Source: a virus. From it: a DNA stretch of 31,455 nucleotides. This document shows positions 2,852 through 21,531 of the stretch, in pieces. The stretch's first letter is position 1. Each line of letters opens with the position of its first letter. The position numbers and the translations under genes are program-made. The stretch is taken from positions 1 to 31,455 of IMG/VR virus record IMGVR_UViG_3300047335_000061. One strand, given 5' to 3'. The notes under the pieces are model-generated. The model ran no database searches and had not been told where the DNA came from. It saw only the letters and a program-made list of their open reading frames with translations.

Positions 2852-3132
2852 GCGCGCCTCCGCGCAGGGACGGCCTTGCGAAGTGCCGGGGCGCAGCCGT
2901 CGCAACACGGAAGCCCGGCAACAACCGTTGTCGCCGCACACGCCGTGCAGCTCCTGCAGTACTCGGCCTGGGCCGAGGCGCGGCTCGCATGGAAATTGGC
3001 GCGAATGGCGTTCGCACGCCGCCGCGCCGTTTCCTCGAGGTCCTCGCGCGCGATCGCCCCTTTCGCGAAGTCGCGCAGCGCCGGCCCCAGCACGCCACGC
3101 ACGGCCGCGTCCAGGCGCGCCTGCGGGGTCAT
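2848..3132 (-). CDS. Small Cys-rich protein downstream of portal
   Basis: A 94-residue protein. The N-terminal half is helical and charged (RREDLEETARRRANAIRANF-like composition). The C-terminal half has Cys pairs (YCRSCTAC, LPCCDGCAP) arranged like a four-cysteine zinc ribbon, ending in a basic tail. Its ATG overlaps the portal stop codon (ATGA). Function unknown; a DNA- or protein-binding accessory head factor is conceivable. Confidence 0.6.
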   Translation of the reverse strand: MTPQARLDAAVRGVLGPALRDFAKGAIAREDLEETARRRANAIRANFHASRASAQAEYCRSCTACAATTVVAGLPCCDGCAPALRKAVPARRRA

Positions 3133-4859
3133 GCCGCGGCCGCCTGGCTGGGCGGCCCGTAGCCTGCCCCAGCGGCGCCCTGGGCGGCGCCCTGGGCCTG
3201 CATGCTCGCCAGATTTGAAAGCGCCCCGGTGCCGTCTTTCGCGCCCTTGGTGGCCGCCAGCAGGGCCTGCTGTTCCTGCTGCTGCTTCGCCGCGTCCGCC
3301 TGCGCCTGGCGATACGCCGCCATCTCGTCGGGCGATTTCAGCGCATCCGCCGGCGCGTTCAGATCGCGCGAGGTGCGGCGGATGATCCGTTCCGCGCTCA
3401 GCACGCTGCCGGCATCCGGGTCCACCTGCATCAGCCCCAGCGTCGTCTGCACCAGGCGTGACACGCTATCCAGCTCGCTGGATTTCTGCGCGATCGCCAG
3501 CGGAGATACATACTCCACATGCAGCGGCCGGCCATTGATCTTCGGCGGCGGCTGCGGGAACGGCGAGCCAGGCCCGAACTTCTTCAGCTTGCTCTGCCGC
3601 CACAGGATGTTGAAGGTGCGCTCGATCAGCGGCCCGGTGAATTCGCCCTGCATGCGCGCCACCATCGGGCTCGCCTGGCGCATCTTTTCCGCCCGCTGCT
3701 GCTGGGTGAACGTCGCCGTCACGCCCTTGCCGTCGCTCGCCGGGTCGGTCATGTCCGACGGCATGATGAACCAATCGACGTAGAACCCGCGAATGATCAT
3801 CTGCCGGGCGTCGTTCACCATCTCGCGGCCGAGGCCGATATCGCCTTTCGTCTCCAGCGGCTGGATGCGATCGGTCGGCCGCATCCCGGCGCGATAGAAA
3901 ATCCGCGCGCCGGGCTGCGTGCGCAGCGGCAGCATGAAGCCGTCATCGGGCAGCATCAGCGGCGGATCGACCACTTTCTGCGCGCCTTTCAGCACCGTCT
4001 TGACCATTTCGTTGAGCATCTTGATGTCGGGCAGCGCCCGCATGCCGGGCGAGCGGCCATAGATCTCGCCGGTCGATTTCATGAAGCGTGGCGCCATGAA
4101 CGGGAACTCGTCGAAGCCGCCTTCGGAGATCACCGCCGCATCGTCCTCGGACACATAGACGCTCTCGAACGCCTTGTGTTTGCTGTCCGCCCGTTGCGGG
4201 TCCCGCACGGCGCGCGGCTTGACCTGGTGCAGGAACCAGAACTTGCTGTCCGGCTTCTCGTCGAACGCCTTGGAAACCTTCTCGCCCGCAGCCGCCCCCC
4301 AGCGCTGCACCGCCTGCTTGGCGGTGAACTGAAACCGCCGCACCACGGTATCGACGCGATCCTCGTCATTTTCCGCGATCACGCATTCCTTCAGGTGCCG
4401 CGTGGAAAACTGGATCGAGCCGGAAGGCGTCTCCAGCACGCTCATCACCCCGGTGCCGATGCAGCCGAGGTCCTGATACAGCTCGTGGCTCTGCGCCGCG
4501 AAGGTGTGTTTGGTGCCGGAGAAAATGTCGTAGAGAATGTCCGACACGCCATCGAGCCACACGCGGCAATCGTAATCGGCGTTCACCGCGTCATCGTCGG
4601 CATGCAGACCGAACCATCGCACATCGGTGCTGGTCAGAAACCCATGCAGACCATTGGCGAATTGATCCAGCGCCCAGAGCGGCGTGCCATCATACACCCA
4701 GGTCATCAGCTTCTGGCCCGGCGTGCGCTCGACGATGTAGCTGGAGCGCTCCGGAAACATGTAGTTCGCGCATTGCTGCCAGTGGCTTTTCCAGGTCAGC
4801 CGGTCGCCGTCCAGATACTGCCAGCGCTTGATCACCTCGTTGGCTTTTTCGTCCGGCAT
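3129..4859 (-). CDS. Portal / head-to-tail connector protein (T7-like)
   Basis: A 576-residue protein matching the podoviral head-tail connector family in length and motifs: an N-terminal helix leading to WKSHWQQCANYMFPER, the conserved DGTPLWALDQFANGLHGFL region, a wing segment around TPSGSIQFSTRHL and the stem region LPDIKMLNEMVKTVLKGAQK. Twelve copies would form the vertex ring through which DNA is packaged and ejected. The C-terminus is Gln/Ala-rich (QAQADAAKQQQEQQA), common for connector C-terminal barrels. The ATG at 4859 lies 1 bp after the stop of the preceding gene. Confidence 0.9.
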   Translation of the reverse strand: MPDEKANEVIKRWQYLDGDRLTWKSHWQQCANYMFPERSSYIVERTPGQKLMTWVYDGTPLWALDQFANGLHGFLTSTDVRWFGLHADDDAVNADYDCRVWLDGVSDILYDIFSGTKHTFAAQSHELYQDLGCIGTGVMSVLETPSGSIQFSTRHLKECVIAENDEDRVDTVVRRFQFTAKQAVQRWGAAAGEKVSKAFDEKPDSKFWFLHQVKPRAVRDPQRADSKHKAFESVYVSEDDAAVISEGGFDEFPFMAPRFMKSTGEIYGRSPGMRALPDIKMLNEMVKTVLKGAQKVVDPPLMLPDDGFMLPLRTQPGARIFYRAGMRPTDRIQPLETKGDIGLGREMVNDARQMIIRGFYVDWFIMPSDMTDPASDGKGVTATFTQQQRAEKMRQASPMVARMQGEFTGPLIERTFNILWRQSKLKKFGPGSPFPQPPPKINGRPLHVEYVSPLAIAQKSSELDSVSRLVQTTLGLMQVDPDAGSVLSAERIIRRTSRDLNAPADALKSPDEMAAYRQAQADAAKQQQEQQALLAATKGAKDGTGALSNLASMQAQGAAQGAAGAGYGPPSQAAAA

Positions 4860-6251: not shown

Positions 6252-6463
6252 TGTGGTTTCGCCTTTCCAGATAAGGGACATTCGCGAATTTTTGCGGTCA
6301 GCCGTCCCCTTTTGTCCAGTTTTCCGAGCTGGTTTAGCCGCGCCCGACACAGCCCAAACTCGTGCACCAGGTCCTTCCACAGCACACCCTTGCGGCGCGC
6401 GGCGCGCACCGCCGCGCCGATCGCCGCCAGATCAGCGATCGCGCGGTTGCTACTGGCCGACAT
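6239..6463 (-). CDS. Small HTH-like protein after large terminase
   Basis: A 74-residue basic protein starting MSASSNRAIADLAAIG. The segment GVLWKDLVHEFGLCRARLNQLGK could form a helix-turn-helix, suggesting a DNA-binding protein. Its start lies inside the last codons of the large terminase gene (14-bp overlap). A role in late regulation or packaging is possible but unsupported. Confidence 0.5.
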   Translation of the reverse strand: MSASSNRAIADLAAIGAAVRAARRKGVLWKDLVHEFGLCRARLNQLGKLDKRGRLTAKIRECPLSGKAKPQKCL

Positions 6464-7982
6464 TGAAGGGGTCCCAATCGCTTTCGTGCCGCATCCCACG
6501 CAGCGCCTGAAAGCCGCTCCGCTCGCGCCTGCCGCGGATCGCCAGATCCTCGCCGCCGGCCGAGAGCAGATACTGGTTTGCATCGTGATCGTGCGAATAT
6601 TCGTTTTTGTCGACTTCGTCGGTGAACTTTTCCTCACCCCCGCTGCGCACCTTCCGAAACCGATAGCCCGCATTGAAACCTTCCCGCAGATGCGCGCAGG
6701 TCGGGCTGAGCAGATAGCCCGGCTGCCCGTCTATCAGCCGCGTCAGCGGCGTCCGCACCGCCTCCTGCCGCGCTGTTGGATTATTCGTCGGCGCCGCATC
6801 GACGCGGATGCCGGCCTCCGCGCTGACGATTTCCGTCCAATCCTGCTCGCCGGCCACGCGATCGGCGCCATACACGGCCGAAGGGTCCGCCCAGGCCCTG
6901 ATCGAGCCGTGCCGAGAATACCGTTCGCCTTCCTCCGGATCGCTGCCGCGATACGGCGCCGGCGAGGTGACGCCGAATTCCGGATACTTGTCCTGCAGCA
7001 GTTTCGCGAGCATCTGGCCGAACCGGCGCGGTCCGGTGTTCTGCTCTCCGAGCAGCTCGTCCAGGATGCGCCACTGGCCATTCGGCATCCGCTGCCCGAT
7101 CACCGCCGCCGGGTTGCCGCCGGCATCGAGCCCGATCAGCAGCGGCAGCCCTTCGACCGCCTTCAGCTCGCTGTCCGCGACATGCAGCGCGTCATTGAAT
7201 TCCGGATAGACCGGCTTGCCCGCCCGGCTGACGCCAGGCTTGTTGCGGATGAACTTGTCGATATACCACTCGGGCTGCCCCGCCATTTGCCGGACGTAAT
7301 AATTTTTCGGCAAATTGACCAGGTTCTCCGCATCCGGCGAAAGGCCCGAGGGCTGCCGGAAAAACTTCCATCCGGGCGGCAGCTTGGGCACATACCATGT
7401 TTTGTAACAATGGTTGCCGAGGCTCGGCGCGTTGAAATCCTCGATGATGCCGAACCAGGTCGGGCCGCCTTCATCCATGCCAGGGTAGCGCCCGGCACGC
7501 CCTTGCGCGATGCTTCGAACATCCTGCGCCAGCGTGTCGTTTTCATTCAGGTAGAAGGCGGTCGGCTCATACCCCTTGAGCACGTCTTCCGCGGCGTTTT
7601 CGCCTATCGCCAGGAATTCCACTTTCAGGTCGACGATGCTCCGATCCGGCAGGCCGAACTGCAGCTCATGCAGCGCCGGCGCGTCTCGGCTCCCGACCCA
7701 GCGGCCGACATCTTCCGGGAATTGTTTGTGCCAGCTCGGGATCGTCGTCTTCCAGAGCTGCCGATAGGTGTCACGCACCACGCAAATCTTGAACTTCCGC
7801 AGCCCGTCTTTCCACGATTGCTGCTGATCCATCGCCGTGCGCACCATCCGCATCAGGCACGTTGTCGTCTTCCCGCCCCCGATCGGCCCGTTGATCGCTG
7901 CCACCTCCGACCGATCGACGAAGAACGCCTTCCCGACCGGACCCGAGGGCGCGTAGCGAATGGCGTTCGCGGGAATGATCAC
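6450..7982 (-). CDS. terL: Terminase large subunit (packaging ATPase-nuclease)
   Basis: A 510-residue protein that pumps DNA into the prohead and cuts it. The Walker A motif GPIGGGKT is at residues 32-39, a Walker B-like TAFYLNEND at about 141-149, and the C-terminal RNase H-fold nuclease starts near PVYPEF (about 258-262) with the catalytic-type aspartate in IGLDAGG (D286). Length fits the family. The GTG start at 7982 overlaps the previous stop as GTGA. A one-mismatch copy of the GCGAAC-N3-GTTCGC palindrome lies 12 nt into the gene (7956-7970). Next to the putative small subunit it forms the packaging module. Confidence 0.9.
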   Translation of the reverse strand: MIIPANAIRYAPSGPVGKAFFVDRSEVAAINGPIGGGKTTTCLMRMVRTAMDQQQSWKDGLRKFKICVVRDTYRQLWKTTIPSWHKQFPEDVGRWVGSRDAPALHELQFGLPDRSIVDLKVEFLAIGENAAEDVLKGYEPTAFYLNENDTLAQDVRSIAQGRAGRYPGMDEGGPTWFGIIEDFNAPSLGNHCYKTWYVPKLPPGWKFFRQPSGLSPDAENLVNLPKNYYVRQMAGQPEWYIDKFIRNKPGVSRAGKPVYPEFNDALHVADSELKAVEGLPLLIGLDAGGNPAAVIGQRMPNGQWRILDELLGEQNTGPRRFGQMLAKLLQDKYPEFGVTSPAPYRGSDPEEGERYSRHGSIRAWADPSAVYGADRVAGEQDWTEIVSAEAGIRVDAAPTNNPTARQEAVRTPLTRLIDGQPGYLLSPTCAHLREGFNAGYRFRKVRSGGEEKFTDEVDKNEYSHDHDANQYLLSAGGEDLAIRGRRERSGFQALRGMRHESDWDPFNVGQ

Positions 7983-8272
7983 CAGCCGCCCCCCGCGCCC
8001 TCAAACACCGACGTGCCTTGGCCGATTTTTTTGGCACCTTCCGAACAGGCAAGGCCTCTTCCAAAACCTGAAAAAAGCACGGACGAAGGGGGGCGCGCAG
8101 CGCTTGAAACCGAAAAACCGGGGCACCCCCCCCGGCGGAAATTTCCCTGGCTGGAGGCCCCGCCGCCTGGCGCGGCAGCGCCACGACGCGGCCAACCCGG
8201 CGCGAGCAGCAGATTGGGTATCAGCGGCGCAAGCACCACAACAGACAGCGCGATCAGCATGTTAGCGCTCAT
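7979..8272 (-). CDS. Putative small membrane protein between terminase genes
   Basis: A 97-residue reading frame beginning MSANMLIALSVVVLAPLIP, a hydrophobic segment of about 18 residues that would be a signal anchor, then a Gly/Ser/Arg-rich low-complexity tail. It overlaps the putative small terminase end by 11 bp and the large terminase start by GTGA, so the tiling supports it. The ribosome site is weak and the C-terminal composition is poor, so it may instead be partly non-coding. No family recognised. Confidence 0.4.
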   Translation of the reverse strand: MSANMLIALSVVVLAPLIPNLLLAPGWPRRGAAAPGGGASSQGNFRRGGCPGFSVSSAARPPSSVLFSGFGRGLACSEGAKKIGQGTSVFEGAGGGW

Positions 8273-8801
8273 CTTCCAACTTCCCATCTTCCAACTGCTG
8301 AGGTTGCGCGGCGCTAAGTGGCTGAAAGAACTCACCTTCCAACGTCGCACCATGATCCTGGCCAAGGTCGCCGAAAAACACCGGGATGATGCCAGCGCCA
8401 TTGACGTTGACGCTCACCGGCATCTTGCCTTCGACGTATTCGAGCACCACGCGCCGCGCATCCATCTGCGCCTTGAACGCTTCCAGCGGCGTGCAGCCCA
8501 GCTCCCGCGCCAGGTCGTGCACCGGCCGGTTATACGCCTCGATCAGCCCATCCACTGGATGCTCGCCATGCGCCCGCGCCAGCACATACTCCCGGAACGC
8601 CTGCGTCTTCCGGTTCAACGCGCCCTGCGGCCGCCCAGGGCCCGCCCGCTCACGCTGCCGCAGCGCCGCCTGCCGCTCCGCAAGCCCAGCCGGCAGCGAC
8701 GCGATCTCCGCCGCCGGAAACAGCGCCGGCTGCACCGTCGGCGCGCCCGCCTCGTCCAACGCCTCCCGCATCGCATCCACCACCCCAGAAGCAGCAACCA
8801 T
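8262..8801 (-). CDS. Putative terminase small subunit
   Basis: A 179-residue protein. GRPQGALNRKTQAFREYVL is typical of phage small-terminase-like proteins (G-RP-G-x-N-K-T-x-AF), followed by helices and ending in a Gln/Glu/Asp tail. It lies immediately upstream of the large terminase and next to the symmetric repeat array, which would suit recognition of a packaging site. A generic phage DNA-binding protein cannot be excluded. ATG at 8801 has a weak GGGTGA ribosome site. Confidence 0.6.
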   Translation of the reverse strand: MVAASGVVDAMREALDEAGAPTVQPALFPAAEIASLPAGLAERQAALRQRERAGPGRPQGALNRKTQAFREYVLARAHGEHPVDGLIEAYNRPVHDLARELGCTPLEAFKAQMDARRVVLEYVEGKMPVSVNVNGAGIIPVFFGDLGQDHGATLEGEFFQPLSAAQPQQLEDGKLEDER

Positions 8802-8862
8802 CTGATTTCACCCGAATATTTTAATGATCACCAGCAGCGCGTCTCACGAGATGAGACCATTT

Positions 8863-9131
8863 CCTAACCGAGTTAGGAAACCGGTTAGGTTTTGGGTTAG
8901 GTTTCTTTCCTGTCCTGGCCTTCATCTCTTCCATTCCTAACTTCCTAACCACCTAACCATGTATTCCTTCATGCGCGTGCGCCTGCGCATGCGCGAGAAG
9001 ATATAACTACGCGCGTGCGCACGCGCGCACACATCACGCGAGGCGGTTAGGAAGTTAGGAAGTTAGGTTTGATGTAAGCTGTTGAGGCGAAAGGCAGATT
9101 TCCTAACCGAAAACCTAACCGAATTCCTAAC
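8863..9131. repeat. Mirror-symmetric GTTAGG/CCTAAC iteron array (putative origin or packaging site)
   Basis: The gene-free stretch 8802-9245 holds thirteen copies of GTTAGG or its complement. Twelve form two inverted halves: GTTAGG at 8872, 8884, 8896 (12-bp pitch) and CCTAAC at 8936, 8944, 8952 (8-bp pitch); then GTTAGG at 9046, 9054, 9062 (8-bp pitch) and CCTAAC at 9102, 9114, 9126 (12-bp pitch). Every left copy mirrors a right copy about the same centre, 9001/9002, to the base. A thirteenth copy (8863-8868) makes a TTTCCTAAC-CGA-GTTAGGAAA palindrome with the first. The centre is AT-rich and flanked by alternating GC/CG tracts. It sits between replication and terminase genes. Confidence 0.85.
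8971..9030. other. Alternating purine-pyrimidine tracts around an AT-rich core
   Basis: Two blocks of alternating G/C dinucleotides (8972-8995 and 9008-9030) flank AGAAGATATAACTA. The right block contains a perfect 18-bp palindrome CGCGCGTGCGCACGCGCG (9010-9027), the left block GCGCATGCGC (8985-8994). Such tracts can adopt Z-DNA or cruciform structure, and the core could be a melting site. This is the exact centre of the iteron array. Confidence 0.6.
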
Positions 9132-9245: not shown

Positions 9246-9578
9246 TCAGCCTGGTGGTGAAATCGGGCGAAGGCCCTCGGGCAGCGCCCAGCGATACTTC
9301 CAGCGCACCGCCATCAGTCGCGTAATTTCCGACTGTGTCAGCTTTTCCACGCGCCGCCCGCGCACGCTGCGAATGAACTCCAGGTCGCCGCTCCCCGGAT
9401 CGGTCTTCTTCACGCGCTGCAGCGCCGCGCACAGATTGCCCAGCAGCAGCTCGAGCTCGAGGCCGTCGCGATGCGGCTCGGTTTCCTGGACAACCTTCCT
9501 GGCCTCCTCCACAAGCCATGGCGTCAAGCAGTGTGCTGCTTGCGACGCCACGATCGTGCAGGCCTCTTCCCGCGTCAT
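9246..9578 (-). CDS. Hypothetical protein, last gene of the replication operon
   Basis: A 110-residue protein starting MTREEACTIVASQAAH, largely helical, with a basic region RSVRGRRVEKLTQSEITRLM that could include a DNA-binding helix pair. The ATG overlaps the helicase stop as ATGA. It borders the iteron array, so a role in origin binding or replication control is a positional guess only. Family not recognised. Confidence 0.6.
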   Translation of the reverse strand: MTREEACTIVASQAAHCLTPWLVEEARKVVQETEPHRDGLELELLLGNLCAALQRVKKTDPGSGDLEFIRSVRGRRVEKLTQSEITRLMAVRWKYRWALPEGLRPISPPG

Positions 9579-11494
9579 CCCGGATACGACCAATCTGCCG
9601 GATCATCGGGCTCGGGCCGATCGTTCGGCTCGGGTGCGGGCGTCGCCGGCGGCGCGTCCTCGATGCTGGCCTCGAGGCACAGCTTGAGCTCGATGAGCGT
9701 GGCCTTGCTCTGCGAACCAAACCAGTAGGTCTTGTTGTCCCGCAGATGCGGCAACCTGCGCAGCGATTGCACCCAAACGCCTTGCGTGCCAGGCCGCGCG
9801 CCCCATTGCGTGTTCTCGAATATCTTCGAGAGGCCGCGATGAATATTCGCTATCGCCAGATATTGGATGCCGGTGCCTAGATCGGTCACCAGCTTTATCC
9901 CATAGTCCAGCAACAGCTTTTCCGCATTCCGAACGGTCGCTTTCAGCGCATTGAATTCCTCGGTTGTCCACGCCGGATCACCCGTGCCGGCAGCCGCCGC
10001 AATCCATTGTCCCAAGGTCTGCCGAACGCGATCACGCGAATTGTCGATTTGCGTCGACAGCAGATACGCAAGGCACGCATTCTCGTCGCTCATCGTGCCT
10101 TCGATCTCGGCGAGCTTTGAGGCCTCCAGCCGCTGCGTCCAGCCTGCCAGCACATCAGTCTCTGGCAGTTCATCGGCCAGCAATAAATCAGCGCAGGCCA
10201 GCAGCGTTCCGAACACATCCTGTCCGCGCGCCGAATGCCCCGCCGTCGCCATCGCCGCGCGATACGCTTCCAGCGTCCCCGGAAATCGCCGCCATTGCAT
10301 CAGCAGCCGCCGCAGCAATTTCGTGCCGAGCTCGGCAATCTTTCGCTCAGTCGTCGACGGCGCCGGCACACCCTCCCGCAGCTTGTCCAGCTCGAGTACG
10401 GCCATGCGCGATCGATCCTGCGAAAGCAGCGGCGGTATCAGGATCGAAGAGAACATGAAGCACGATCGCACGGTGAACGCGCTCGCCTCGTGATCCTGCC
10501 CGCCGCGATACCCGATCGATCCCGAGGCCGCATCGCGCGCCAGCTTGATCAGCGCCTGCATTTTGCGGTTGTCTTCGTCGCTCTCGCTCTCATCGAGCGC
10601 CACGGGCCGCGAGGCATATTTCAACGTCTGCCGAATGCCGGCCGCCGAGCTGTCCGACGTGCGCAGCAGCCCGTTATCGCCCATCACCCATTGCAGGATC
10701 TCGGCGAGCGTGCTTTTGCCCGTGCCCGCCCCGCCGGTGATCCACGCCACCACGCGCCACCCGAGCGCACCGCCCAGCATTGCCGCCCCGATCCACCCGA
10801 GCAGCAAATGCGCATCGATATCCTTGCGCCGCCAATTCCAGGTTTCCAGCAGCGCCAGCATCTCGGCCGCCGGCCCGCGCGGGCCGCCTGGCTGCGCCAC
10901 GCCGTGCGGCTTCATCCCCGGCGGCCCGGCCGGATACACCAGCCCGCCGACCAGGCCCGGCGCGATCCGCGCCCAGGCCGCTTCCGCCGCGGCATCGTCC
11001 TGCACCGCCGTCACCAGCAGCTCATCCCCGCAATGCAGGATCAGCTCGCCATCCCGCCCCTTCCACGCGCCGGCGCCGCGCACCCGCTCCTCGGCCGACC
11101 AAACCCCCAGCTTGCCGCACTCGCCCATCAGCGCTTCGGCGCACAGCTCCGGCTTCCACCCCGTGGTGATCCATCCCAGCGTCGTCTTGTCCTGCGATTT
11201 GCGCGGCCAGAATTCGTAAAGCAGGTCTTTTTTGCGGCCGAACATCTGCTGCAAATTCAGCCGCGAATGGTCCCGCGCCTTCAGCTCGCGTAACTGCCCG
11301 AGCTGATCGAGGTAATAGCAAACGTCGCCATTCACCCCGATCGGCAGCACCGGGCAGCCATAGGGCAGGAACGTCATTTCCCCCTGGCCGGCGCCATCCT
11401 CTTCGCCTGGCGCGGCGGGTGCGGGAGGTGCTGCGTCGATGCTGTTTCGCCGCAGCCGCCTCACATTGCCAAGGCCTTCGGTATCGTCGCTCAT
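9575..11494 (-). CDS. Phage replicative helicase/ATPase (P-loop)
   Basis: A 639-residue protein. Walker A GGAGTGKS lies near residues 254-261 and a Walker B-like PVALDESE near 297-304. An Ala/Pro-rich N-terminal linker and a roughly 200-residue N-terminal domain precede the ATPase core. The arrangement resembles the phage primase-helicase C-terminal ATPases of the D5/SF3 type, working with the separate TOPRIM primase encoded just upstream. It should unwind phage DNA, plausibly from the neighbouring iteron array. I chose ATG 11494, which overlaps the primase stop as ATGA, rather than an earlier in-frame start. The C-terminus is Pro/Glu/Asp-rich. Confidence 0.8.
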   Translation of the reverse strand: MSDDTEGLGNVRRLRRNSIDAAPPAPAAPGEEDGAGQGEMTFLPYGCPVLPIGVNGDVCYYLDQLGQLRELKARDHSRLNLQQMFGRKKDLLYEFWPRKSQDKTTLGWITTGWKPELCAEALMGECGKLGVWSAEERVRGAGAWKGRDGELILHCGDELLVTAVQDDAAAEAAWARIAPGLVGGLVYPAGPPGMKPHGVAQPGGPRGPAAEMLALLETWNWRRKDIDAHLLLGWIGAAMLGGALGWRVVAWITGGAGTGKSTLAEILQWVMGDNGLLRTSDSSAAGIRQTLKYASRPVALDESESDEDNRKMQALIKLARDAASGSIGYRGGQDHEASAFTVRSCFMFSSILIPPLLSQDRSRMAVLELDKLREGVPAPSTTERKIAELGTKLLRRLLMQWRRFPGTLEAYRAAMATAGHSARGQDVFGTLLACADLLLADELPETDVLAGWTQRLEASKLAEIEGTMSDENACLAYLLSTQIDNSRDRVRQTLGQWIAAAAGTGDPAWTTEEFNALKATVRNAEKLLLDYGIKLVTDLGTGIQYLAIANIHRGLSKIFENTQWGARPGTQGVWVQSLRRLPHLRDNKTYWFGSQSKATLIELKLCLEASIEDAPPATPAPEPNDRPEPDDPADWSYPG

Positions 11495-12630
11495 AATGCC
11501 AGGCGTTCCCCCGCGCGTTGCGCGATCGTGGTTTGAAACCACTCATTCACGTCTTTGATGCCAGGCGGCGGCCGCGCTTCCGCCACCCGTTTGCCCATGG
11601 CCTTGAAATGCGCGACGGCCCGATCGGCCGCGAGATCGGCCTTGCTGCCGGGCGTGTCATTGTCCCGCCACAGCACCACGCCCTCGACGCAATCCGGCAG
11701 CCGCACATTGACGAAATTGCCCACGCTCACCGCGCACAGCACCCGCGCTTCGGTATCGGCGAGCGCCACGTTCAACCCATCCTCGATGCCTTCGACCAGG
11801 TCGACCCAGACGCGGGCCTTCAGCTCGGAAAGCCGCCGCGCCTGCTTCACCTCGCCGGTTTTCGGGTCGACGCGCGTGCCACGCCACAGCCGGATCGTGC
11901 CGCCCCGAAAACTGCCAAGCGTGCTTTTGGCGACGTTTTTGCCGTCGGCACTGAACACCGGCGCCTTGCGCACCGAACCGTCCTGCAGCACTTCCAGATA
12001 GGTGCGATGCACGGCGAGAAACTTGCCGTCGCTGCTGGTGATCGCCGCCATCATCGCCGGCCACGGCCGCTGGCTATGCTTCTCCCAAAGCCCCGGATGG
12101 CAGCGCAGCGCGCGCAGCGGATAGGGCAGCCGCGTGATGTTCAGGCCGCGTCCCAGCAGATAGCCCTGCGCCGGGCTGTCGGCGATCGGCGCGCTCGCCA
12201 GATACAGCATTTGCGCCGTGCGCCGGCGCTTCTCTGCATCCTCGTCGATTTCGTCCTGCGTCGGCCGCACCGGCGCCGGAAGCTGGGCCAGTGCCGCCGC
12301 ATCCGCGCCATCGATGCCGAGCCAGGCTTTCGCCCACACGATCGCCGCCTTCTTGTCGCCGGCGAACCGCAAGAAGGCGATCAGATCCAGCAGATCGCCT
12401 TTTTCGCTGGGCGATCCGTTATGCACCGCCCAGATCCCGCGCCGCGGGCCATGGCCGATATGCACGCTGAGGCTATCGCCGATGCCGCCGCGGTTGCGCC
12501 GCGCCTCGCGCCATTCGCTGCCCTCGCGCCGGCCGAGCGGCAGCAGCTCGCGCACCAGGCTTTCGCAGCGCTCCGTGAGCATCCCTACGATACGCCCGAT
12601 CGGCACCAGCGGCGTCACGTTGCCGGTCAT
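11491..12630 (-). CDS. TOPRIM-domain DNA primase
   Basis: A 379-residue protein with a C-terminal TOPRIM domain: VEGIED (residues 279-284) supplies the first acidic residue and WRDNDTPG (321-328) the DxD motif. The upstream part (GLWEKHSQRPWPAMMAAIT, then AVHRTYL) resembles the DUF7146-type domain found in phage and plasmid primases; GDLLDLIAFL near residue 78 is the usual primase fold element. No clear CHC2 zinc motif is seen. It synthesises primers at the phage replication fork and is coupled by ATGA to the helicase gene. Confidence 0.85.
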   Translation of the reverse strand: MTGNVTPLVPIGRIVGMLTERCESLVRELLPLGRREGSEWREARRNRGGIGDSLSVHIGHGPRRGIWAVHNGSPSEKGDLLDLIAFLRFAGDKKAAIVWAKAWLGIDGADAAALAQLPAPVRPTQDEIDEDAEKRRRTAQMLYLASAPIADSPAQGYLLGRGLNITRLPYPLRALRCHPGLWEKHSQRPWPAMMAAITSSDGKFLAVHRTYLEVLQDGSVRKAPVFSADGKNVAKSTLGSFRGGTIRLWRGTRVDPKTGEVKQARRLSELKARVWVDLVEGIEDGLNVALADTEARVLCAVSVGNFVNVRLPDCVEGVVLWRDNDTPGSKADLAADRAVAHFKAMGKRVAEARPPPGIKDVNEWFQTTIAQRAGERLAL

Positions 12631-15801: not shown

Positions 15802-16178
15802 CCGCCCGCCATCTCTGGCTGGTCGACGCCGCCGGCACGCCCGATCCGCTGCTCGATTTCCTGCGCGGCTGCCAATCCGCCTACCGCAACGACGACACCG
15901 GATGGTCCGTCTGGGATTTCGTCCAGCAAGCCACCTACAGCTTCGATCGCCTGGTGATCGGCGAGCCGGCGACCGTCGCCCAACTGGCTCAGCTTGCCTG
16001 CATGATCGAACGCCACAAGGCCGCCCTGCGCGTCGCCAAGAACCGCCTGATCGTGATCGCGATGATCGAACCGCCGATCGACGCCGAGATCCTGGCCGAA
16101 GCGCGCTTCACCGTCCAGCACGTCACCGCGAACGCCGTTCGCACGAAAGGAGAGCTCCATGCCGAAGGCTGCCGCTGA
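15798..16178 (+). CDS. Hypothetical protein before the ParB-like gene
   Basis: A 126-residue soluble protein starting MTARHLWLVDAAGTPD. The pattern DLLLDFLRG-like helix then long helical segments (QLAQLACMIERHKAALR) suggests an all-helical fold. It starts by ATGA overlap and its last 20 bp overlap the ParB-like gene start; the GCGAAC-N3-GTTCGC palindrome is within its last codons. No family recognised. Confidence 0.55.
   Translation: MTARHLWLVDAAGTPDPLLDFLRGCQSAYRNDDTGWSVWDFVQQATYSFDRLVIGEPATVAQLAQLACMIERHKAALRVAKNRLIVIAMIEPPIDAEILAEARFTVQHVTANAVRTKGELHAEGCR
16128..16142. promoter_or_regulatory. 15-bp palindrome GCGAACGCCGTTCGC (copy 2)
   Basis: Identical to copies 1 and 4. It ends 16 bp before the ATG of the ParB-like gene, immediately upstream of its AAGGAG ribosome site, a position suited to autoregulation of that gene. 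Confidence 0.6.
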
Positions 16179-17928
16179 AACCTTCTGGACGCGCCTGGAT
16201 GCAAATCTCGGCGCCTTCAACATTTCCACCCTGGAAAAGGCCGCCGGCCTCGGCAAATGCACCTTGCTGAATGCGCGCAACCGCGGCTCTACCCCCACGC
16301 TCGATACCGTGCTCGCCGTCTGCCGCAGCCTCGGCGTGCCCGCCCTCACCTTGCTCGGCCCGGACACGCCAACCGAGCTGCTGCAATCCTCCGCCACGCC
16401 GGATGACGCCATCCGTCGCATCCCGTTCAACAACCTCACCGTCAGTCATCTCAACCCGCGCCGCACCATCGACGAGGGCGCGCTGACGGAGCTGGCGGAA
16501 AGCATCGCCGAGAAGGGCCTGCTGCAGAACCTGGTCGTGCGGCAGGACGAGGATCAGCCCGCCATCTACTGGATCGTCGCCGGCGAACGCCGCTACCGCG
16601 CCTTGCTTCTGCTCGGCGCCGGCGGCCGCTTCCCCAAAGACCTGCAGACGCTTGGCGTGCCCTGCCGCGTCATCACCGCGACCGACGCCGAGCACACCAT
16701 CCTCGCATTGCTGGAGAACATGCAGCGCGAAGAGGTATCCCCGCTCGACGAAGCCGAAGCCATGCACCGCCTGCACACGCTGGACCCGAAACTCTGGAGC
16801 GCCACAGCCATCGCCCAGCATCTCGGCGTCACCCCCCGCCTGATCCAGCTCCGTTTGCAGATGGTCAAGAACCTTGCGCCGGCGGCAAAGTTAGAGTTGC
16901 GAGCGGGCAAGATCAATTTGAACCAGGCTCGAGTGCTCGCACGCCTGCCGACCATCCTGCAGGAACATCTGCTGCAAGATGCGGTTACCGGGACGCCCGC
17001 CGACGAGCTGTTCGATCCCACGGATTACACGCCGACATCGCTTGCGATTTTCGATGTGAAGAAGTCCGGCCTGGAGACGTTCCCCGATCCGGAGGATCAG
17101 ACCAAGGCCTACTTCGTCTCGCGCGAGGCTTTCCTGAGCGCGCAGCGCGCGGCCGTCGCCATCCGCAAGGCCGATCTGCTGCGCGAAGGCGTCGAAAAGG
17201 TGATCGATCTTACCTACGATCAGCCGCACCGTTATGTGCCAGGCGGCAACATCGCCGTCATCGTCTCAGAGCTTTCCGGCCGCGTTTCGATACGCCTCGG
17301 CCTGAAAGACGCATATGCGCAGCCATCGGCATCTCACGTCAGAGCAGACGATGACGACGACGATCTGAATTTGGATGCGGGCGCGGTGCCCTCCCATCCT
17401 GCCCGCGCCAAAGTGCCACCTTTGGCGGCAGCATGGCGGCGCTATCGCCAGGAGGTCGATGAGGCACGTGCCGCATTCCGTGGCGAGCTAGAGCAGAACT
17501 TGTCGGATAACCACTTCGCGCTTCTGCTGCTGGCGGAGTTCGCCAATCAAGGCGATGCTGGCACTGTCATAGACCCGCAAGGCGTCGACGTGGCGCCGTT
17601 GCTCGGCGTCACCAGCGAAGAGTTCGACAAGACTTGCGAAGCAGACGACGACCACGCTTTTTTTGCAATGATCAAAACGGCCGCCGGAAACGATCCACAA
17701 GCTGTTCTGCGCCGCGTCGTGTTCGCCATGGTTCCCACATCCACCTGGGGCCGGCAGCCAGCATCTTTGCCAGAGGCATGGCGGGACGTCGCTAGAGAGT
17801 GCCATGTCGCGGTGCCCGATATACTGTGTGAGGATCAAGCGGAACACGACGCCCGCATCAGCCGCTACGTCTCCGAGGTTGAAGGCCAGACCGACATCGA
17901 AGACGCGATCGCGGACGCCGCGGCGTGA
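16159..17928 (+). CDS. XRE HTH-ParB fusion protein (ParB/RepB/Spo0J family)
   Basis: A 589-residue DNA-binding CTPase-type protein. An N-terminal XRE-like helix-turn-helix (about residues 22-62) precedes a ParB N-terminal domain: NPRR (99-102), the nucleotide-binding box GERRYRAL (142-149) and the ENMQREEVSPLDEAEAMH box (186-203). The ParB central HTH follows near 214-238 (TAIAQHLGVTPRLIQLRL). The last 350 residues include an Asp run and no domain I recognise. ParB normally loads at a centromere-like palindrome and works with ParA, but no parA gene is in the window. AAGGAG lies 6 nt before the ATG. The extra HTH and the palindrome just upstream suggest a regulator that may bind GCGAAC-N3-GTTCGC sites; that is an inference. 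Confidence 0.85.
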   Translation: MPKAAAETFWTRLDANLGAFNISTLEKAAGLGKCTLLNARNRGSTPTLDTVLAVCRSLGVPALTLLGPDTPTELLQSSATPDDAIRRIPFNNLTVSHLNPRRTIDEGALTELAESIAEKGLLQNLVVRQDEDQPAIYWIVAGERRYRALLLLGAGGRFPKDLQTLGVPCRVITATDAEHTILALLENMQREEVSPLDEAEAMHRLHTLDPKLWSATAIAQHLGVTPRLIQLRLQMVKNLAPAAKLELRAGKINLNQARVLARLPTILQEHLLQDAVTGTPADELFDPTDYTPTSLAIFDVKKSGLETFPDPEDQTKAYFVSREAFLSAQRAAVAIRKADLLREGVEKVIDLTYDQPHRYVPGGNIAVIVSELSGRVSIRLGLKDAYAQPSASHVRADDDDDDLNLDAGAVPSHPARAKVPPLAAAWRRYRQEVDEARAAFRGELEQNLSDNHFALLLLAEFANQGDAGTVIDPQGVDVAPLLGVTSEEFDKTCEADDDHAFFAMIKTAAGNDPQAVLRRVVFAMVPTSTWGRQPASLPEAWRDVARECHVAVPDILCEDQAEHDARISRYVSEVEGQTDIEDAIADAAA

Positions 17929-19193: not shown

Positions 19194-20192
19194 GTGATCG
19201 ACCTCCCGTTCCCGCGCTCTCTCCCCGAGTTCCAAGCGCTGTTCCCCGATGATGCGGCGTGCGCGGCCTATCTTGAGGCGGCACGCTGGCGCGATGGTTT
19301 CGTCTGCCCGCACTGTTCGACGGCTGGCGAGCCCTTCCGCTTCGAGGCGCGCCCCGGCGTGCTGCGGTGCAGGAAGTGCAGGAAAGACACAGGGTTGACG
19401 GCAGGGACCGTCATGGAGCGCACACATACACCACTGAGCGTGTGGTTTTGGGCGAGTTACCTCGTCAGCAGCCAAACGCCGGGGATGAGCGCGGTTCAAT
19501 TCCAGCGTCAGCTTGGGCTCACCCGATACGAGACGGCCTTCCAAATCCTGCACAAGCTTCGGGCCGGAATGGTTCGCCCTGTCGCGGATCGGATCGGCCG
19601 GATTGAGGATCATGTCGAGGTCGATGAGGCGTGGGTCGGCGGTAAGACCAAGGGCGAAGGCCGGGGCGTCCACGGCCAGACGCTGGTCGCCTGCGCCGTC
19701 GAGGTTCGCCAGCGCGACCCCGCCTCGCCGCTCAACAAGCGCAAGGGCGGCCGGATCGCCGGACGTATCCGCCTGTCCGTGGTCGAGGATCGCACCGCCA
19801 AGTCGCTGTGCGGCTTCGTCGAGGCAACCGTGAACCCCACCACCATGATCGTGACCGATGGGTGGAACAGCTATAGCGGCCTCGCCAAGCTCGGATACGA
19901 GCACCTTGCATGCGCCGAGAACAACGACCCTCAGGTCGCCGAGGACTATCTGCCGATGGTCCACATGGTCTTTTCGAACCTGAAGACGTGGTTGAAGGGG
20001 ACGCACCACGGTGTTAGCCCCCAGCACCTTCAGGCCTACCTCAACGAGTTCACCTTCCGCTTCAACCGCCGCCACTACCCGTTCAACAGCTTCCGCTCGT
20101 TGCTCGGGCTCGCGGGCGGAAACGAGGCCCCCACTTATGCCAGCCTGTATTCGGGTGATTGGAAGCATCCTAAATGTGGTGGTCATGGGTGA
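19194..20192 (+). CDS. IS1595-family (ISXO2-like) transposase
   Basis: A 332-residue DDE transposase. The N-terminal zinc ribbon (CPHC ... CRKC) is followed by the family motif TGLTAGTVMERTHTPLSVWF, an HTH region (MSAVQFQRQLGLTRYETAF), and the catalytic domain with VDEAWVGG (first Asp), IVTDGWNSY (second Asp) and a C-terminal NEFTFRFNRR segment. It appears full length with no frameshift, so the element may be active. GTG start at 19194 with GAGGG 6 nt upstream. Confidence 0.9.
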   Translation: MIDLPFPRSLPEFQALFPDDAACAAYLEAARWRDGFVCPHCSTAGEPFRFEARPGVLRCRKCRKDTGLTAGTVMERTHTPLSVWFWASYLVSSQTPGMSAVQFQRQLGLTRYETAFQILHKLRAGMVRPVADRIGRIEDHVEVDEAWVGGKTKGEGRGVHGQTLVACAVEVRQRDPASPLNKRKGGRIAGRIRLSVVEDRTAKSLCGFVEATVNPTTMIVTDGWNSYSGLAKLGYEHLACAENNDPQVAEDYLPMVHMVFSNLKTWLKGTHHGVSPQHLQAYLNEFTFRFNRRHYPFNSFRSLLGLAGGNEAPTYASLYSGDWKHPKCGGHG

Positions 20193-20212: not shown

Positions 20213-20242
20213 GTTGACCTAGATGAGGACATCCCGTTTTGA
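20213..20242 (+). pseudogene. 3' remnant resembling an SSB C-terminal tail
   Basis: Directly after the right IS end one frame reads VDLDEDIPF then TGA. The acidic stretch ending in DIPF is the signature C-terminal tip of bacterial single-stranded DNA-binding proteins. Its stop codon overlaps the ribosome site of int, the spacing expected for operon genes. I infer that an ssb-like gene stood here and lost its body when the IS inserted; the short length makes chance similarity possible. Confidence 0.45.
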
Positions 20243-20256
20243 GGAGCGAACGCAGC

Positions 20257-21531
20257 ATGACACCGCACACAACCCATGCCAGGCTCCCCCCCGCGCCAGC
20301 GAGGGGCAAAGCCATGACCAAGGTCAAGATCCGTTACTTCGTCGAAAAGCGCGGCGCCGCCGGCGCGATTTATTACTGGCAGCCCAACAACGCTCTTACG
20401 GCCGCCGGCTGGCATCTCATCCGCCTGCCCGACGATCGGCGCCAGGCCATCGCCAAGGCCGAAACGCTCAATGCCGAGCTGGACGCCTGGCGCACAGGCA
20501 CAGCCCTGCCCACGGCCGCCGGCAAGCCATCCCCCTACGTGGAGGATGGCACCCTCGCCGCCGTCATTCGCACCTACAAGGCCAGCCGCTTCTACACCGG
20601 CCTGCGGGAGCGTACGAAGCGCAGCTACAAGCAGAACATGGATTTCCTGGAAAAATGGGGTGGCGACAAGCGCGTCGCCGCCATCACCCCGGAAACGGTC
20701 GAGAAGCTCTACGTCTCGCTCTATGAGCGCACCCCCAGCAAGGCTGCGGCCGTCATCACCATGCTGCGCATGTTGCTGCAGGCCGCCATCCGCATGCGCC
20801 TGGTCACCATGAACGCCGCCAGCAAGGCCGGCATCAAAGGCCGCCCGCATTCCGGCAGCATCTGGCCCCAGGGCGCCATCGCGCTCTTCGCGGAGATGGC
20901 CGACGCCGAGGGCTGGCATAGCGTCGGCACCGCCGTCATCCTCAATAACTGGCTAGGGCAGCGCCAGGCGGACATCCTGCAGCTGCCTCGCAAAGCCGTG
21001 GCCGACGGCCGCGCGGCCGTCCTGCAGAGCAAGACGGGCGCCCGCGTCAGCGTGCCGGCGAGCCCTGCCATCACCGCCCGCATCTCGGCCGAGCTGGCCC
21101 ACCAGAAAACCCTCGAGGAAGCCCGCACAGCCGCCCTGGCGAAAAAGGGCGCCATCGCCCTGCCCAAGGATCCGCCGGCGACGCTGCTGCTGTGCGAGAC
21201 GACCGGCGCCCCCTGGACGGAGCACTACTTCCGGCACGTCTTTGCCGACATCCGCGCCAAGCTGGCCAAGGCGCACCCCACGATCGCGCACCCCGACGGC
21301 ACCGAGGTCGATACGACGAAGCTGGTCTACATGCATTTGCGTCACACGGCCGTCACCGCCATGGCCGTCTCCGGCAGCACCGCCATGCAGATCGCCGGCG
21401 TCACCGGCCACAGCCTCGCCGGCGTCAACCAGATCCTCGCCCGCTACCTCAGCCTCACCAGCGAACTCGCCGACCAGGCCATCGGCAACCGCATAGCCTA
21501 CGAACAGCGCCAGGCCGGCGTCAAAGGCTGA
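20257..21531 (+). CDS. int: Tyrosine recombinase integrase
   Basis: A 424-residue phage integrase. It has an N-terminal arm-binding type domain (IRYFVEKRGAAGAIYYW), a core-binding SAM-like domain (about 95-190) and the C-terminal catalytic domain with R236 (LGQRQADIL), K259 (QSKTGA), HLRHT (R362), H385 (TGHSL) and the nucleophile Y397 (ILARYLS). The position three before R362 is Met rather than the usual His; the neighbouring His may substitute. ATG 20257 has GAGGAG 10 nt upstream; ATG 20314 with GAGGGG is an alternative. Last gene of the rightward operon, 2.4 kb from the att core. Confidence 0.9.
   Translation: MTPHTTHARLPPAPARGKAMTKVKIRYFVEKRGAAGAIYYWQPNNALTAAGWHLIRLPDDRRQAIAKAETLNAELDAWRTGTALPTAAGKPSPYVEDGTLAAVIRTYKASRFYTGLRERTKRSYKQNMDFLEKWGGDKRVAAITPETVEKLYVSLYERTPSKAAAVITMLRMLLQAAIRMRLVTMNAASKAGIKGRPHSGSIWPQGAIALFAEMADAEGWHSVGTAVILNNWLGQRQADILQLPRKAVADGRAAVLQSKTGARVSVPASPAITARISAELAHQKTLEEARTAALAKKGAIALPKDPPATLLLCETTGAPWTEHYFRHVFADIRAKLAKAHPTIAHPDGTEVDTTKLVYMHLRHTAVTAMAVSGSTAMQIAGVTGHSLAGVNQILARYLSLTSELADQAIGNRIAYEQRQAGVKG

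Follow-up and report, generated by a model that had tools for sequence, protein, structure and literature searches.

Why should a viral genome carry a short word repeated in a mirror arrangement that is exact to the base, and which protein might read it? The window, that is, the whole stretch of DNA analysed here, is an entire IMG/VR virus record, 31,455 bases long, and its GTTAGG/CCTAAC array (8863–9131) comprises twelve copies arranged as two inverted halves of six sites each. From left to right, these are outer triplet A (8872–8901, + strand), with three GTTAGG at 12-bp pitch (8872, 8884, 8896); a 34-bp spacer (8902–8935; GC 0.44 against 0.64 overall), which is a candidate DNA-unwinding segment; inner triplet A (8936–8957, − strand), with three CCTAAC at 8-bp pitch (8936, 8944, 8952); an 88-bp centre (8958–9045); inner triplet B (9046–9067, + strand), with three GTTAGG at 8-bp pitch (9046, 9054, 9062); a second 34-bp spacer (9068–9101; GC 0.41); and outer triplet B (9102–9131, − strand), with three CCTAAC at 12-bp pitch (9102, 9114, 9126). 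Recomputation reproduced the positions, pitches (12/12, 8/8, 8/8, 12/12) and spacers given for these twelve copies in a preliminary description of the sequence, as well as its single sum, 18003, of left start and right end for all six mirrored pairs (8872+9131, 8884+9119, 8896+9107, 8936+9067, 8944+9059, 8952+9051) and its dyad centre at 9001/9002; the other strand likewise gave 6/6 pairs at one sum. The count of twelve holds for the mirrored copies but leaves out a 13th, CCTAAC at 8863–8868 (− strand), which is separated by 3 bp from the outer side of the left triplet and lacks a mirror partner, even though the range first given for the array begins with it. Both strands of the 31-kb window together hold 16 GTTAGG, 13 of them within 269 bp, whereas shuffled windows hold 3.6 on average and 9 at most, and when the window's own half-template was scanned without regard to the word, the array scored 36/36 against a background of no more than 30/36 (583,934 offsets). 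The arms are also alike outside the hexamers (30 nt, 90% complementary), as might be expected if the mirror were a by-product of repeat duplication and inversion with a functionless spacing, an explanation on which the relatives described below bear directly.

The genes around the array suggest candidates for its reader. Replication and late genes here are all on the − strand, and the array sits 3′ of the primase–helicase operon and before the terminase genes. Directly 5′ of it, with one ORF intervening, is the gene of a D5/SF3-like helicase (9575–11542, − strand; 655 aa), the proposed initiator, whose C-terminal residues ~482–624 (9671–10099, − strand) are proposed as the iteron-binding domain; a primase with DUF7146 and Toprim_3 (11491–12630, − strand) belongs to the same operon. 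On the other side, a small terminase-like (TerS-like) gene (8262–8801, − strand) starts 62 bp beyond the array, and the genes of the large terminase subunit (TerL; 6450–7982, − strand) and portal (3129–4859, − strand) are also present; the TerS-like gene was named by position and sequence, its PHROG match being a family of unknown function. The intervening 115-aa ORF (9246–9593, − strand), whose product had been put forward (as 9246–9578) as a possible binder, was seen only in the window and in its closest relative, L003, and so is not a general iteron binder. GC skew in the window keeps its sign at the array and is uninformative.

The divergent arm encodes an HTH gene and a ParB-like protein, the latter of 589 aa, with a ParB domain and an HTH-like region at its N terminus (16159–17928, + strand), and distant from the replication genes. 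Beyond it, an ORF at 19194–20192, which by its sequence resembles an IS1595-type transposase, adjoins a recombinase-like ORF (20239–21531). Iteron centromeres occur in plasmids, and the array could in principle serve the ParB-like protein, which is encoded in L003 as well as in the window, as a centromere-like site of partition. Among the fetched loci, however, with their limited flanks, relatives of this protein were confined to these two, whereas arrays are present in all, and the arrays of P4 and PICIs act in replication, such that a partition site appears extremely unlikely.

Arrays of the same plan are found in related phages, and the base-exact mirror is found in some of them. A profile of four helicases added 29 loci, some of them duplicates, from viral and bacterial contigs, including Sphingomonas, Rhodospirillales and Phycocomes. 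In L003, whose helicase is 66% identical, the equivalent gap holds an array of the word CGTTAT (+ 12 + 12 + [44] - 8 - 9 - [112] + 8 + 8 + [42] - 12 - 11 -) in the same order as in the window. All helicase relatives with a complete region have an array 3′ of the helicase (L009 on second inspection; L017 is truncated and uninformative), while none was present in the examined flank of some distant relatives (Bordetella phages L035, L036 and L043 and Microcystis phage L044). The words themselves are diverse (GTTAGG, CGTTAT, GTAAC, GTTACC, AGAAC, GGAACC, GTTGCA, GTTGC, GTAGC, GTCGTG, GTCGTA, GGTATGG, TCCCG). Across the catalogue of 24 loci, site number is 12 in 14 arrays and 10–13 in all 24, same-strand spacings are almost all 8–9 or 10–13 bp (8, 77 times; 9, 15; 11, 26; 12, 21; 13, 6), and opposed neighbouring sites are mostly 21–24 or 40–45 bp apart. 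Pitch, order and site number are thus kept in relatives with wholly different words, which bears out the earlier proposal that selection acts on the geometry and leaves the sequence free. Despite the likeness of the arms over 30 nt, the by-product explanation is refuted and retains practically no probability, as duplication within a genome cannot yield a spacing that recurs with unrelated words and spacers in many phages.

The mirror is less rigid among relatives than in the window. It is exact to the base in Bdellovibrio phage phi1422 (6/6 pairs, GTTAC) and in L053 (6/6, GTTAG) and nearly exact in others, and is therefore not universal; the rule that no base has been gained or lost does not extend beyond such cases, with relatives off by 1–4 bp or, where the halves are unequal, by about 10–12 or 22–24 bp in one spacer (40/52 in L008, 41/65 in L007, 42/65 in L052), steps that are suggestive of helical turns. 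An exact 12/12/40/8/8 template recovered the closest relatives only, which argues for a flexible geometry (about 1–2 bp, with larger steps in single spacers). Taken singly, the weaker arrays (~29–36 in k-mer clustering) fall partly within the upper range of a Markov null, for which the maximum was 33.7 (48 sequences of 12 kb), a doubt that is removed by the position and spacing they hold in common. The phi1422 array (L041, NC_019525; 7394–7694) comes from a cultured phage, where it immediately follows the primase gene, and is unannotated in the record; it also goes unmentioned in the accessible part of the phi1422 paper, which lists the repeats of other phages (PMC3391216).

Does geometry alone lead back to such helicases? 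A pattern of two inner pairs, 8 bp apart and inverted across 55–85 bp, was run against 2.9 million viral contigs; patterns and words were chosen after the first arrays had been seen, and independence in this test comes from the contig scans. With GTTCT, 25 loci were recovered, all with at least eight sites, and the helicase family was encoded in 22, each time with the array 3′ of the helicase (22/22) at a distance of 235–1359 bp; the three loci without it have short flanking DNA on one side. CCTAAC matched at five loci; the helicase is 119–175 bp away in three, and the remaining two have the array close to the end of a contig. With GTTAC, each polarity, forward or everted, had at least 120 loci, of which most among the matches listed were real arrays, and immediately 5′ of these are large genes for, among others, D5_N/DUF5906 primase-helicases and DUF927+HTH_56 (Cch-type) helicases. 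The everted pattern thereby failed as a polarity control, nearly all of the matches listed being real arrays, and the scan is uninformative on polarity. Across both polarities in viral contigs, GTTAC/GTAAC was by far the commonest iteron word scanned, among the matches listed, and its arrays adjoin several initiator families. Two GTTAC inner-pair arrays occur together in IMGVR_UViG_638276882_000001 (L074; 9062–9158 and 10787–10883), and likewise in IMGVR_UViG_3300031867_000183 (L108, L130); such pairs may represent two origins or the duplication of a module.

The helicase itself was modelled (pLDDT 81), and Foldseek matched it to the NrS-1 helicase region (6K9C), the SaPI5 primase-helicase (7OLA), AsfvPrimPol and MPXV E5 with probability 1.00 and E-values of 3e-7 to 5e-5, albeit with low TM-scores (0.23–0.33 by query length); in these matches the predicted ATPase region takes the D5/SF3-type hexameric helicase fold. 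None of Pfam D5_N, DUF5906 or DUF927 matched the window helicase, and DUF927 matched one of its 24 relatives (1.5e-4). A C-terminal stretch of 143 residues is predicted, with confidence (pLDDT 90), to fold as a domain of its own. Modelled in isolation, this domain gave nothing significant against the PDB (best E 0.57), and a profile comparison with the C-terminal regions of PICI and Cch proteins gave no match; homology to the P4, PICI or Cch domains is thus unsupported by either search. Given the ATPase core, similarity in the C-terminal segment 560–620 is correlated with similarity of the iteron word (partial Mantel r=0.42, p=0.0005), as the N-terminal part of the helicase (r=0.03) and the primase (r=0.04) are not, with the reservation that words were aligned by eye and that relatedness among the sequences is only partly controlled. 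Of the helicase and primase parts compared, then, it is the C-terminal domain alone that, judged from these alignments, co-varies with the word beyond the ATPase core.

The same comparison bears on the adjacent small terminase, which would be the reader if the array were a packaging initiation site (pac or cos). The TerS-like gene starts 62 bp away, terminase genes come next in many relatives, and TerS similarity follows word similarity (r=0.55), weakly so once the ATPase core is given (0.20, p=0.018). Given the C-terminal helicase domain, however, TerS drops to r=0.13 (p=0.086) and TerL to −0.03, whereas the C-terminal domain given TerS stays at 0.48. Moreover, the phi1422 array follows the primase gene directly in a stretch without annotated terminase, this phage is reported as circularly permuted (PMC3391216), and the P4 and PICI arrays lack an adjacent terminase. 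None of the examined contigs terminates at the array, and in the computed data the array was associated with neither TerS specificity nor genome ends. We consider a packaging site very unlikely.

Proximity to the terminase genes might instead reflect a second role, in which an origin doubles as the operator of the late (terminase) operon and binding of the helicase links replication with late transcription. The 62 bp between the outer site and the TerS start, a weak promoter-like match at 8818–8847 (− strand) and TerS starts 20–80 bp past the last site in several relatives would all suit such an operator; the TerS gene of the AGAAC class, on the other hand, is about 670 bp distant, and the promoter match is a consensus match only. 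This dual role strikes us as rather unlikely.

If the array is an origin, where might the duplex open? The centre in the window holds an alternating purine–pyrimidine run of 27 nt (9008–9034) and also a short AT segment (ATATAACTA). Such runs, 11–35 nt long, occur in the centres of the 22 arrays that were measured; these centres are GC-rich, with a mean near that of the locus (~0.62), and alternation exceeds the 95th percentile of background in 16 of them; the spacers between outer and inner sites, in contrast, are AT-rich, at about 0.19 and 0.27 under locus GC. The spacers, rather than the GC-rich centre, are thus most likely the melting sites, while the centre is a possible supercoil-absorbing (Z-DNA) element. 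A hairpin or terminator was rejected as a conserved feature of the centre, with folding better than z=−2 in only 7 of 22. In the window, a terminator-like stem of 9 pairs lies within the array centre (9008–9029, − strand) and could also end transcription of the helicase operon. The spacer at 8902–8935 is 85% purine on the helicase-sense (−) strand; the mean among relatives is 0.55, so this bias is not general.

We conclude that the array is very probably a phage replication origin bound by the phage's own helicase, with the six sites of each half seeding one hexamer. From the computed evidence (the layout, its conservation despite word change, the location 3′ of the helicase, the fold family and the C-terminal co-variation) we infer binding, one hexamer per half, the melting site and bidirectionality. 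The D5/SF3-like helicase (9575–11542) would bind as hexamers through its C-terminal domain, one seeded by each half with its three sites at 12-bp pitch and three inverted sites at 8-bp pitch, and two hexamers would assemble face to face with the centre between them; opening of the AT-rich spacers, of the centre or of both would follow, and the helicases would depart in opposite directions, each together with the co-encoded primase. The iteron word would be free to drift because it needs only to match the phage's own helicase domain, whereas the spacing would be held because it sets the position of the subunits in the two rings; one hexamer per half would suit the count of six sites, the mirrored arrangement and spacers that accept extra DNA in roughly helical steps. 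Of the three functions that had been offered for the array, the origin is favoured, and packaging and a centromere are not as the main function, since the array accompanies the primase-helicase even in phages and satellites without an adjacent terminase and since comparable layouts occur in a tested PICI origin (PMC6092414) and the annotated P4 origin.

Whether these arrays reflect a general spatial code for the origins of virus-encoded self-loading helicases is, in our estimate, an evenly balanced question. Under such a code, twelve sites, six per half, would set two facing hexamers through the spacing of their mirrored runs, the word would be a phage-specific key, evolving freely in step with the C-terminal domain of the helicase, and one large branch would have a Z-DNA-prone centre of alternating purines and pyrimidines in place of an AT-rich one. 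The assembly of ring helicases on duplex DNA that is still closed has long been a question, and dozens of natural spacing variants with differing words on one plan make the idea of one hexamer per half directly testable. The arrays also offer a simple means of locating origins in many uncharacterised phages.

Among known origins, those of the lambda O type are also phage iteron origins, but have direct repeats of ~18 bp that are not mirrored, and use the host helicase via a loader. The alpha protein of satellite phage P4 acts at ori and crr, and is a D5-type primase-helicase by its Pfam matches. The annotated P4 ori has six type-1 sites (+ 10 + 11 + [22] - [43] + 10 +), close to one half of the window array in its site number, 10–11 pitch and 43-bp gap between opposed sites; it differs in forming one six-site set, with the crr repeats several kb off, rather than two mirrored halves. 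At the SV40 origin, short inverted recognition words serve two hexamers of a virus-encoded SF3 helicase, but there are four pentanucleotides rather than a 12-site array and the reader domain is N-terminal; the two hexamers of large T antigen, a viral SF3 helicase, are treated in the accessible portion of PMC9894130.

Within the open-access literature on phage iteron origins with such helicases, close matches came only from work on PICIs, SaPIs and SCCmec. In SaPI Rep the ori is read by the C-terminal domain, and the protein apparently does so as two hexamers (PMC7581432); SaPI5 Rep and SCCmec Cch2 (PMC7581432; 7OLA) share with the window the helicase fold (Foldseek) and an origin directly downstream; their C-terminal domain is the DNA reader, as is proposed for the window helicase, although the latter has no D5_N/DUF5906 Pfam match and no detectable C-terminal homology to them, and the Cch2 origin has three iterons as against twelve mirrored ones. 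As in the window, PICI origins (EcCICFT073, Gram-negative; SaPI, Gram-positive; PMC6092414) have a central region with a set of short iterons on either side and lie directly 3′ of a D5/SF3-type primase-helicase gene, and the rep–ori segment of EcCICFT073, from E. coli, replicates a plasmid (PMC6092414). We assigned the EcCICFT073 locus from its PICI gene content (NC_004431, 1377930–1388654), and its ori (- 9 - [46] + [22] - 11 - 9 - [31] + 11 + [22] - [46] + 9 +) is also mirrored to the base (5/5 pairs at one sum). The statement that no phage origin has been described with this layout is therefore fair for the 12/8/8/12 pitch, but a two-set iteron origin was already known from PICIs. Each EcCICFT073 half runs pair–single–triple towards a short 31-bp centre, with 9/11 pitch and 46/22 gaps, whereas the window has runs of 12/12, [40] and 8/8, and its centre is GC-rich and alternating, the AT-rich stretches being the spacers. 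PICIs, furthermore, are satellites, whereas the window is a complete phage with terminase and portal, and for these two reasons, a complete phage and a centre that is not AT-rich, we do not class its array as a PICI origin. Our best reading is an origin of the PICI/P4 type, with a self-loading helicase, within a complete phage; what is new here is the 8/12 pitch, the combination of an alternating purine–pyrimidine centre and AT-rich spacers, and the occurrence of the arrays in many phages, and a kind of origin that had been described as exclusive to satellites would thus be widespread in complete phages.
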